Position numbers and translations under genes: made by a program. The notes below the pieces were generated by a model. The model did not search any database, was not told where the DNA came from, and saw only the letters and a program-made list of their open reading frames with translations. Below, one piece after another: positions 9,168 to 11,267 of a DNA stretch of 64,000 nucleotides (the stretch's first letter is position 1; each line of letters starts with the position of its first letter). The stretch is from Limnohabitans sp. MMS-10A-178. GTDB taxonomy: Bacteria > Pseudomonadota > Gammaproteobacteria > Burkholderiales > Burkholderiaceae_C. Location: contig NZ_NERY01000001.1 of NCBI RefSeq assembly GCF_003063375.1, positions 744,001-808,000 of the forward strand, in the 5' to 3' direction.

Positions 9168-9353
9168 TCACACAGTGATATCGACGTTGCCGCCCTTGGC
9201 CTGGCCAGTTGGTTTGACCTCCTGTCTGGTCACTTCTCGCTGAGCCTCTGTTCTTGGTGGTGGCGCTTCTTTTTTCTGCTCTGTTTGCACGGGGCGCTCT
9301 TGTTGCACCCGAGGGGTGTCGGGGCGATTGTTGGCGGGACGAATTTCTGACAT
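9168..9353 (-). CDS. Small disordered hypothetical protein (61 aa)
   Basis: The ORF track lists 77 aa from 9401, but the ATG at 9353 ('MSEIRPANNRPDTP') is preceded by AAGGAAG at 7-nt spacing, a good ribosome-binding site. The product is rich in Pro, Gln, Glu, Arg and Lys and has no hydrophobic core, so it is probably disordered. I recognise no family. It lies alone between the YebC gene (same strand, 90 bp downstream) and the divergent membrane protein gene. The clear ribosome-binding site is the main support; it may still be spurious. Confidence 0.5.
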   Translation of the reverse strand: MSEIRPANNRPDTPRVQQERPVQTEQKKEAPPPRTEAQREVTRQEVKPTGQAKGGNVDITV

Positions 9354-9480
9354 GATGAAACTTCCTTGAAATTGATGTGGGAATTTAGGGCGCTTCGACA
9401 AATGACATTGTCAAGCAAATTAAGATTCAACAGGCATCATTTGTCTGAAAGCACCTTGTGAAAATCGCCATCCAACTTTT

Positions 9481-10275
9481 ATGAAATTGCTCAAAAAATG
9501 CTTGGTCGTTGGCGTTTCGGCATGTATTTATTACCTGTCTTTGCTCATCAATGAGTGGGTCTGGGGCGAACCCGGTTTTTCCTTTGATGTGCACTGGGTG
9601 TTTTTCCCAAGCGGCATCAGGTTTGTTCTGGTTCTCCTGGCATTGGAGTCTGGGGCTTTGGGCATCGCATTGGGCGGTATTCTTTGGATCTATCAAGACC
9701 ACCCTGAATTGGGTCTTCATTTTGCTTTGATGACTGGGTTTATTGCAGGGCTCTCGCCGTTGCTGGCTCGCCAACTCAGCGTGATGTTTCTGGGTTTAGA
9801 CCGTGAATTTAAAGTGGTCTCCCCCATGACCTTGTTGAAGATTTCACTGCTTTTCGCTACGCTGAGTGCGTTTTTGCATCAACTTTGGTTCTACACCTTG
9901 GGACTCACGGAAAGCTGGCTCTTAAGTTTCAGTGTCATGGCATTGAGCAATTGGGCAGGAACCTTGTTGGTCTTAATGACCTTCAAGTTCATGGATCTTT
10001 CAGGGATCGACGATATAGGCAAAAAATTACTCGAGACCATTGCCATTAAAAGTGCACAAGGACAGCCTTTGGTCGTGACGCAAACCATGGAGTTGAGTGA
10101 CATTGCCAGCCCCGCCACCATCCACAGGCGCATTGAGATTTTGAAAAAAGCGGGACTGATTAAGGTCATGCAGACTGAGCAAAATCAAAAGGTCAAATTT
10201 TTGGTGCCCACCCAAGCGAGCATCGACTATTTTGAGAAGCTGGGCAAACTCATGACCTCAGCTCTTCGCGCCTAA
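9481..10275 (+). CDS. Membrane protein with MASE1-like N-terminus and C-terminal winged helix
   Basis: Residues 1-170 form about six membrane helices (roughly 6-24, 38-55, 57-72, 79-97, 117-140, 144-169). 'WVFFPSGIRFVL' resembles the start of MASE1-type sensor domains. Residues about 180-255 look like a winged helix of MarR type: the helix-turn-helix 'SDIASPATIHRRIEILKKAG' at 206-225, then a basic wing. No kinase, GGDEF or receiver domain is present. It may be a one-component, membrane-anchored DNA-binding regulator. No good Shine-Dalgarno precedes the ATG. Its stop is 11 nt before a threonine dehydratase-like gene, so the two are probably cotranscribed. The assignment is from pattern only. 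Confidence 0.75.
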   Translation: MKLLKKCLVVGVSACIYYLSLLINEWVWGEPGFSFDVHWVFFPSGIRFVLVLLALESGALGIALGGILWIYQDHPELGLHFALMTGFIAGLSPLLARQLSVMFLGLDREFKVVSPMTLLKISLLFATLSAFLHQLWFYTLGLTESWLLSFSVMALSNWAGTLLVLMTFKFMDLSGIDDIGKKLLETIAIKSAQGQPLVVTQTMELSDIASPATIHRRIEILKKAGLIKVMQTEQNQKVKFLVPTQASIDYFEKLGKLMTSALRA

Positions 10276-10286
10276 CTCCCTCAGGC

Positions 10287-11267
10287 ATGCCGCAAGCTCT
10301 TCCCACCTTCGAGGATGTTCTGGCTGCAGCAGCAAGGCTTGAAGGCGTCGCACTCAAGACGCCCGTTCTTCGGTCTCGTACTTTGGATGATCGACTGCAA
10401 GCACAGGTTTTTGTGAAGTGTGAAAACTTCCAGCGCATGGGGGCTTTTAAGTTCAGAGGCGGTTTCAATGCCTTGGCCAAATTAAGCGATTCGGAAAGAC
10501 GAGCTGGTGTGGTTGCGTATTCATCGGGCAATCATGCGCAAGCAGTGGCTTTGTCGGCAAAAATCCTCCAAATCCCTGCCACCATTTTCATGCCACATGA
10601 CGCTGCTCCTGCAAAGTTGGCAGCCACCCAAGGCTATGGTGCCAAGGTCATTGCTTATGACCGCTATAAAGAAGATGCCAATCTCCTTGCAACAGAGCTT
10701 TCCCTTTCTAAAGGGCTGACCTTCATCCCTCCCTTTGATCATCCCGATGTTTTGTCAGGCCAAGGCACTGCTGCGCTTGAATTGTTCAATGAAGTCGGTG
10801 CATTGGATGCGCTGTTTGTGTGCTTAGGCGGCGGCGGGCTATTGAGTGGAAGCGCACTGGCCGCGCAGGCGCTATCGCCTGGTTGCCAAATTGTGGGAGT
10901 AGAGCCAGCTGCGGGTAATGATGTACAGCAATCTTTGAGAAAAGGAGAGCGCGTCAAAATTGCAACGCCAGTGACCATTGCTGATGGCGCCCAAACGCCC
11001 ATGGTGGGTGCCATCACGTTTGAGATCATCAAAGCCTTGGTGCATGACATTCACACCGTGACGGATGAACAACTTGTCCAAACCATGCGTTTTTATGCCG
11101 AACGCATGAAGATGATTGTGGAGCCAACAGGATGTCTGTCCTTGGCAGCGGCCTTTCAAGCAAGTGCTTCAATCAAAGGTCAAAAAGTGGGCGTGATCAT
11201 CAGCGGTGGCAATATTGACATGGCCAGATTCTCGCAATTGATGTCGGCCTATCCTTCAGGCGATTAA
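10287..11267 (+). CDS. Threonine dehydratase / serine racemase-like PLP enzyme
   Basis: The 326-aa protein is a fold-type II PLP enzyme. The cofactor lysine is K55 in 'GAFKFRGG', 'SSGNHAQAVAL' holds the substrate loop, and 'CLGGGGLLSG' is the phosphate-binding glycine loop. It lacks the C-terminal ACT-like domains of biosynthetic IlvA, so it resembles short catabolic threonine ammonia-lyases and serine/threonine racemases; sequence alone does not separate these. It follows the membrane winged-helix gene by 11 nt. Its stop codon shares the tetranucleotide TTAA with the stop of the convergent ispB-like gene. Confidence 0.88.
   Translation: MPQALPTFEDVLAAAARLEGVALKTPVLRSRTLDDRLQAQVFVKCENFQRMGAFKFRGGFNALAKLSDSERRAGVVAYSSGNHAQAVALSAKILQIPATIFMPHDAAPAKLAATQGYGAKVIAYDRYKEDANLLATELSLSKGLTFIPPFDHPDVLSGQGTAALELFNEVGALDALFVCLGGGGLLSGSALAAQALSPGCQIVGVEPAAGNDVQQSLRKGERVKIATPVTIADGAQTPMVGAITFEIIKALVHDIHTVTDEQLVQTMRFYAERMKMIVEPTGCLSLAAAFQASASIKGQKVGVIISGGNIDMARFSQLMSAYPSGD

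Follow-up and report, generated by a model that had tools for sequence, protein, structure and literature searches.

The window analysed here, a stretch of 64,000 nucleotides, contains an open reading frame on the forward strand that begins with an ATG at 9481, ends with a stop codon at 10275 and is translated into 264 amino acids, as had been proposed from the letters alone. The product carries a membrane segment and a winged helix on one polypeptide: a hydrophobic part (aa 1-171) is followed by the winged helix (aa 172-264) with no linker between them, the membrane part being N-terminal and lacking a periplasmic domain. The sequence-only reading took this for a one-component design, in which a MASE1-like sensor with six membrane helices is joined to a MarR-like DNA-binding domain. 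Does this gene represent a design in its own right, how did it arise, and could its product still work? Positions of the features discussed are collected in Table 1.

The two halves of the fused protein

In relatives the two halves correspond to separate genes, with 70-81% identity over aa 1-171 and 80-94% over aa 169-264; judged from these comparisons, homology backs both halves far beyond chance. Neither half reaches the curated cut-off of any named family. In profile searches the fused protein alone gave weak matches to helix-turn-helix models and no match to MASE1. Three divergent relatives of the membrane part match positions 27-175 of the 299 in the MASE1 profile (PF05231), with E values of 2.9e-6, 3.4e-5 and 8.9e-4 and with scores (27.1 bits for the best relative, 23.6 and 18.9) that all fall below the curated Pfam cut-off of 29.8 bits. 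The single protein of the window genome above that cut-off is another one, found in L242. The proposed MASE1-like sensor is therefore backed by sub-threshold matches in the relatives but not by the window protein itself.

MASE1 domains have been described as having about 300 residues and eight to ten membrane helices (PMC6510439), whereas members of the present family have 171-190 residues and five predicted helices. Because the profile match covers 27-175 of 299 positions, 'half-MASE1-like' is a fair name for the membrane part, and its kinship to MASE1 is supported, though not proven, by sequence. With the MASE1 domains of DgcE, PdeF/YfgF and the UhpB type it shares this similarity and a position preceding, or paired with, a cytoplasmic output. 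By genome context the output is a MarR-type domain, fused in the window and gene-paired in relatives. It differs in having about half the length and helices, in scoring under the Pfam threshold, in being mostly stand-alone, and in an output that is a DNA-binding protein and not GGDEF/EAL or a histidine kinase.

From aligned relatives AlphaFold2 predicts five membrane helices in the fused protein and not the six claimed before (mean pLDDT 83.6, about 64-82 in the winged-helix part). A sixth had been considered on account of a glycine/proline-rich break in the second helix. In the model the last membrane helix is followed, after about six residues, by the remainder of the winged helix. A structure search with this model returned no match with E<=0.001, giving weak MarR matches and none for the membrane part.

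The winged helix is better seen in relatives that retain it in full. AlphaFold2 on 64 regulators yielded a MarR-type fold (mean pLDDT 85.6 for a full-length relative) with helices at residues 7-24, 33-47, 54-58 and 66-78, then the wing and a helix at 100-117. Foldseek with the full-length relative found 49 matches with E<=0.001, among them MexR (E 2.7e-5), BpsR, SlyA and MarR, and the regulator is accordingly predicted to have a MarR fold, in agreement with the sequence-only reading. The Pfam models MarR and MarR_2 gave nothing above cut-off, the best of their weak matches having an E value of 0.068. The likeness to MexR, SlyA and BpsR thus consists of the predicted fold from helix 1 to helix 5 with the wing, the best structural matches and, in the related genus g41, a candidate palindromic operator beside the gene. 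On the other hand, the regulator here is shorter, lacks the usual last helix, stays under the Pfam and NCBIfam cut-offs, and would be controlled by a membrane partner instead of a small ligand; the window copy is in addition without helix 1. This helix, residues 7-24, carries several of the most conserved residues and is exactly the part deleted in the window.

Table 1. Features of the fused gene and of the gene downstream, in window coordinates
Feature	Position	Strand	Evidence
Fused gene, half-MASE1-like membrane domain and MarR-type winged helix, 264 aa	9481..10275	+	ORF, translation; both domain profiles match the same ORF
Membrane part, aa 1-171	9481..9993	+	AlphaFold model; 70-81% identity to separate 180-187 aa clade genes
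Predicted membrane helices 1-2, aa 2-28 and 43-73	9484-9564, 9607-9699	+	AlphaFold
Predicted membrane helices 3-5, aa 79-104, 115-139 and 146-171	9715-9792, 9823-9897, 9916-9993	+	AlphaFold
Fusion junction TTCATGG|ATCTTTC, microhomology CATGG / CATCG	9985..10000	+	DNA alignment with L035, L036, L004 and others
MarR-type winged-helix part, aa 172-264, without helix 1 (..YLRYLVLAE..)	9994..10272	+	80-94% identity to 113-116 aa genes; model
Predicted DNA-recognition helix, aa 211-223, inside conserved SPATIHRRIEILKKAGL	10111..10149	+	Conservation, model; same as in nearest relatives
Predicted wing, two-stranded hairpin, aa 227-243	10159..10209	+	AlphaFold model
threo-3-Hydroxy-L-aspartate ammonia-lyase-like PLP enzyme	10287..11267	+	NF005454, 518 bits against a cut-off of 452; PF00291, 8.8e-77

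Origin of the fusion and distribution of the gene pair

Relatives were sought in the genus (90 genomes) and in genome contigs, and 11 of the same type were found. In all 11 the equivalents of aa 1-171 and aa 172-264 are two separate adjacent genes: a membrane gene of about 180-187 aa ends with a stop codon and is followed, after 22-50 bp, by the ATG of a regulator of 113-116 aa. DNA alignment with one of them, L035, showed that the window is without one continuous block of 133 bp: the membrane gene has lost its last 15 or so codons and the regulator its first 20 or so (helix 1), together with the spacer between them. The two genes of L035 are one base out of frame, so that loss of 133 bp brings them into frame. 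Short microhomology is shared by the ends of the deletion (TTCATGG and AACATCGATC).

The fusion is present in one of the 12 clade genomes, and among about 100 loci examined no second ORF with both domains was found. Open frames of 295-356 aa in G018, G446 and G455 could be read as fusions; their translation shows a stop between the two genes. From these alignments the fused gene is best explained as a single-lineage, in-frame deletion fusion of a conserved two-gene module. This runs against the view of it as an established one-component design, as the fusion belongs to one genome and has lost helix 1 while the relatives keep two genes.

To assess how widely the module occurs, 104 distinct loci of the regulator were compiled, most of them in Burkholderiales. 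A membrane gene adjoins the regulator in 73 of them (74 after re-checking). Thirty-two pairs are tandem with the regulator first, 27 are divergent, 14, including the window, have the membrane gene first, and none is convergent. A 4-nt overlap is found in most of the regulator-first pairs of the window genus. No partner was visible at the remaining 31 loci, one of which then proved to have one; with roughly 30 loci out of 104 having no partner within reach, the regulator is thus also able to work by itself or in trans. Within 399 genomes of the order the membrane family occurs in 36 and the regulator in 39, and the two families co-occur. Clear matches in 398 genomes sampled across the phylum are nearly restricted to the order; G809, from outside the class, has the pair with a 4-nt overlap. 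Genus g41, probably Polynucleobacter, has genomes of about 2 Mb and carries the regulator in 99 of 101. The genomic sites of the pair vary by lineage and include hemW, a trp gene cluster and assorted unrelated genes (names assigned by eye).

A locus of genus g41 (L184:4402-5331) encodes a protein of 309 aa in which a GAF sensor domain (GAF_2, E 1.4e-14) is joined to a member of this regulator family, next to genes for PAS/GAF-type signalling. The winged helix has thus been fused to a sensor a second time, independently, and the regulator family serves as a DNA-binding output for sensors of more than one kind.

The window genome also has lone paralogues of either half. A divergent membrane paralogue (L120:8498-9052, minus strand, E 7e-20) has no regulator detected adjoining it. 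A winged-helix paralogue lies beside hemW (L002:1486-1860 and L121:8802-9176, both minus strand); as read in L002 it is a soluble protein of 124 aa, 30% identical to the winged helix, with the hemW-like gene as neighbour. In other members of the genus the hemW site holds a regulator-membrane pair, of which the window genome has apparently lost the membrane gene.

In six clade members (L190:2258-2773, L185, L186, L191, L118 and L124) a gene of 171 aa, unassigned to a family, runs into the start of the membrane gene or directly adjoins it, the overlap being 4 nt where both ends were read. The window and its nearest relatives are without this gene, which could possibly be a lost third component of the module.

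Adjacent genes and a candidate operator

The ammonia-lyase gene begins with an ATG at 10287, 11 nt downstream of the fused gene on the same strand. It had been called a threonine dehydratase/serine racemase; position and superfamily hold, but NF005454 gives it another name (Table 1). The gene lies near the pair in 10 of 11 clade relatives, immediately next to it in most, and in one the contig ends too early. In three clade members (L185, L186 and L189) a molybdenum-hydroxylase-like cassette of two genes, of about 150 and 770 aa and on the opposite strand, separates it from the regulator. Synteny outside the clade revealed no association: the pair there adjoins unrelated genes. Pairing with the enzyme is thus local to the clade, and the link to an amino acid signal suggested in the sequence-only reading is weak. 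The ammonia-lyase gene may be a target of the regulator or a bystander. A MASE1 domain has been reported to modulate aspartate responses (PMC3718329); by analogy, its occurrence beside a hydroxyaspartate enzyme is suggestive but is not evidence.

On the other side, between a yebC-like gene and the fused gene, lies a small ORF divergent from the latter (9168-9401, minus strand, MSEIRPA.RP..PRVQQERP...). A similar ORF is found at L191:6190-6426, and this is probably a real small gene.

In genus g41 the palindrome TTAGC-N6-GCTAA is located between the divergent genes of the pair. Of 20 genomes, 12 have it with at most one mismatch and 17 with at most two (0.5% and 8%, respectively, in shuffled sequence), and it is also found where the membrane gene is missing (G066). 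Genome-wide it was commoner than a reversed-pattern control in all 10 genomes tested (11-22 sites as compared with 2-9). It recurs upstream of the same genes, for example a response-regulator and an alkylsulfatase-like gene (named by eye), in several g41 species. Since these species are relatives of one another and the sites could belong to a different regulator, we regard the palindrome as a lead to the operator of this regulator. Footprinting upstream of the window-clade pair and of the regulator-first pairs of the genus found no shared palindrome.

The longer form ATTAGC-N6-GCTAAT was observed at L243:1501-1518 (G110:C1:138866-138883), with more sites in L263-L276. In several g41 genomes it recurs in front of the same genes: a response regulator gene and a RodZ-like gene separated by about 702 bp, an alkylsulfatase-like gene and a D-Ala-D-Ala carboxypeptidase-like gene. 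These sites constitute a candidate regulon.

A putative membrane-to-DNA switch and the state of the fused protein

Gene fusions strongly hint that two proteins work together. Taken together, the fusion, the conserved neighbourhood, the overlaps of 4 nt and the recurring palindrome point to a simple pathway of two proteins that leads from the membrane to the DNA. On balance we favour the explanation that the 133-bp deletion fused two coupled genes of such a switch, one for a five-helix half-MASE1-like protein and the other for a MarR-fold regulator. The membrane protein would sense a change in the membrane or periplasm and would hold or release the regulator through direct contact at its positively charged cytoplasmic face; the regulator would bind palindromic sites, one of them ahead of its own gene. 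In the window lineage, which apparently belongs to the genus Limnohabitans, sensor and regulator would now form one tethered polypeptide. Functional coupling of the two genes is suggested by genome context; the direct contact, the sensing role and the direction of control are inferred. A switch based on direct contact is proposed because of the tight gene pairing, the 4-nt overlaps, the fusion itself and the precedent of E. coli DgcE, whose MASE1 domain is a docking site for the cytosolic partner RdcA (PMC6510439).

Comparable systems are known. Regulators of the ToxR/CadC type have an N-terminal winged helix, a single membrane helix and a periplasmic sensor domain (PMC5936718). The fused protein resembles them in having a winged helix and a membrane domain on one polypeptide, with the DNA-binding domain expected inside; it differs in the reverse order (membrane part first), in having several helices and not one, in the absence of a periplasmic sensor domain, in a linker that is almost missing and in its restriction to one lineage. 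CadC-LysP, ToxR-ToxS and the DgcE MASE1-RdcA pair are made up of separate proteins, at least one of them in the membrane, that act through direct contact. They belong to other families on both sides; the partner here is a soluble MarR-type regulator, and its contact with the membrane protein is putative.

In the papers searched there was no description of a MASE1-MarR pair or of a MarR anchored in the membrane. Each part belongs to a known kind, and their combination appears to be new. We advance only tentatively, as a possibility somewhat less likely than not, the larger proposal that half-MASE1/MarR pairs make up a class of transmembrane transcriptional signalling modules not described before, nearly core in a freshwater genus that is streamlined, and that the window protein is a working five-helix membrane-tethered MarR fusion. 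The module is near-core in a genus of small-genome Burkholderiales; if it is confirmed, MASE1-like domains, the inputs of which are largely unknown, would gain an easily assayed transcriptional output, and the fusion would be a natural experiment in how membrane-tethered regulators arise.

Several other explanations have to be weighed against a tethered regulator. As the fusion was seen in a single genome, it could be an artefact of assembly or sequencing, the source genome having two genes; a clean microhomology junction at which the loss of 133 bp restores the frame would be unusual as a sequencing error, and the assembly consists of 5 contigs and is 100% complete, so that we consider an artefact extremely unlikely. 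Hardly more credible is a periplasmic C-terminal domain that would not bind DNA, an arrangement that follows from five helices with the N-terminus inside and that agrees with the AlphaFold helix count and with the lysine-rich N-terminus. Against it, K+R counts in 72 membrane proteins put the C-terminus, and the loop that joins helices 3 and 4, on the inside, with a mean excess of about 5; the C-terminus comes out inside in 70 of the 72 on a five-helix and in 72 of 72 on a six-helix topology. In addition, a soluble protein with a MarR fold is predicted for the separate regulator. Taken on its own, the window protein gives a tied charge count when five helices are assumed. The cytoplasmic C-terminus that had been expected is thus supported, short of proof, by charge bias across the family. 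A third explanation is that translation from the in-frame ATG at the junction (M171, 9991) releases a free, shortened regulator and the fusion has little effect. Nothing resembling a Shine-Dalgarno sequence precedes this ATG and its product would likewise be without helix 1, which makes such a start improbable.

Whether the tethered protein works as a regulator or is a recently broken one appears to be about evenly balanced. The N-terminal helix of MarR proteins forms part of the dimer interface. We give slightly less than an even chance to the view that a recent loss-of-function deletion destroyed this dimerisation helix and left the fused protein inactive, or nearly so, and heading for loss. 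The deleted helix holds residues that rank among the best conserved in the family (Y, L, L and A of YLRxLxLA), about six residues separate the last membrane helix from the first helix of the DNA-binding domain, and 11 of the 12 clade genomes lack the fusion. However, the junction is in frame, with neither a stop nor a frameshift, and the branch leading to the window is as constrained as those of intact relatives. In a maximum-likelihood tree the window sequence clusters with L035/L036 (support 99/98), and its branch has a length of 0.087 changes per site. By parsimony, the membrane part underwent 27 silent and 15 replacement changes along this branch (pN/pS 0.16) and the regulator part 13 silent and 5 replacement changes (pN/pS 0.11), as compared with 0.12-0.23 and 0-0.13, respectively, in the intact relatives. 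A neutral phase taking up over about 13% of this branch can be rejected at the 5% level, so any decay would have to be very recent; none is visible in either half by these counts, and the deletion itself may be very recent.

The opposite view, to which we assign a likelihood also just below one half, is that the fusion is a working membrane-tethered one-component regulator, in which the membrane domain would replace dimerisation through helix 1 and DNA would be read at the membrane in the manner of CadC or ToxR. The absence of helix 1, a linker nearly missing where CadC has one, and the moderate confidence of the model in its DNA-binding half speak against it. In its favour are the C-inside topology and the precedent of CadC, a membrane-integrated regulator that binds DNA without cleavage (PMC5936718), as well as purifying selection on both halves, an intact wing and a recognition helix identical to that of the nearest relatives.
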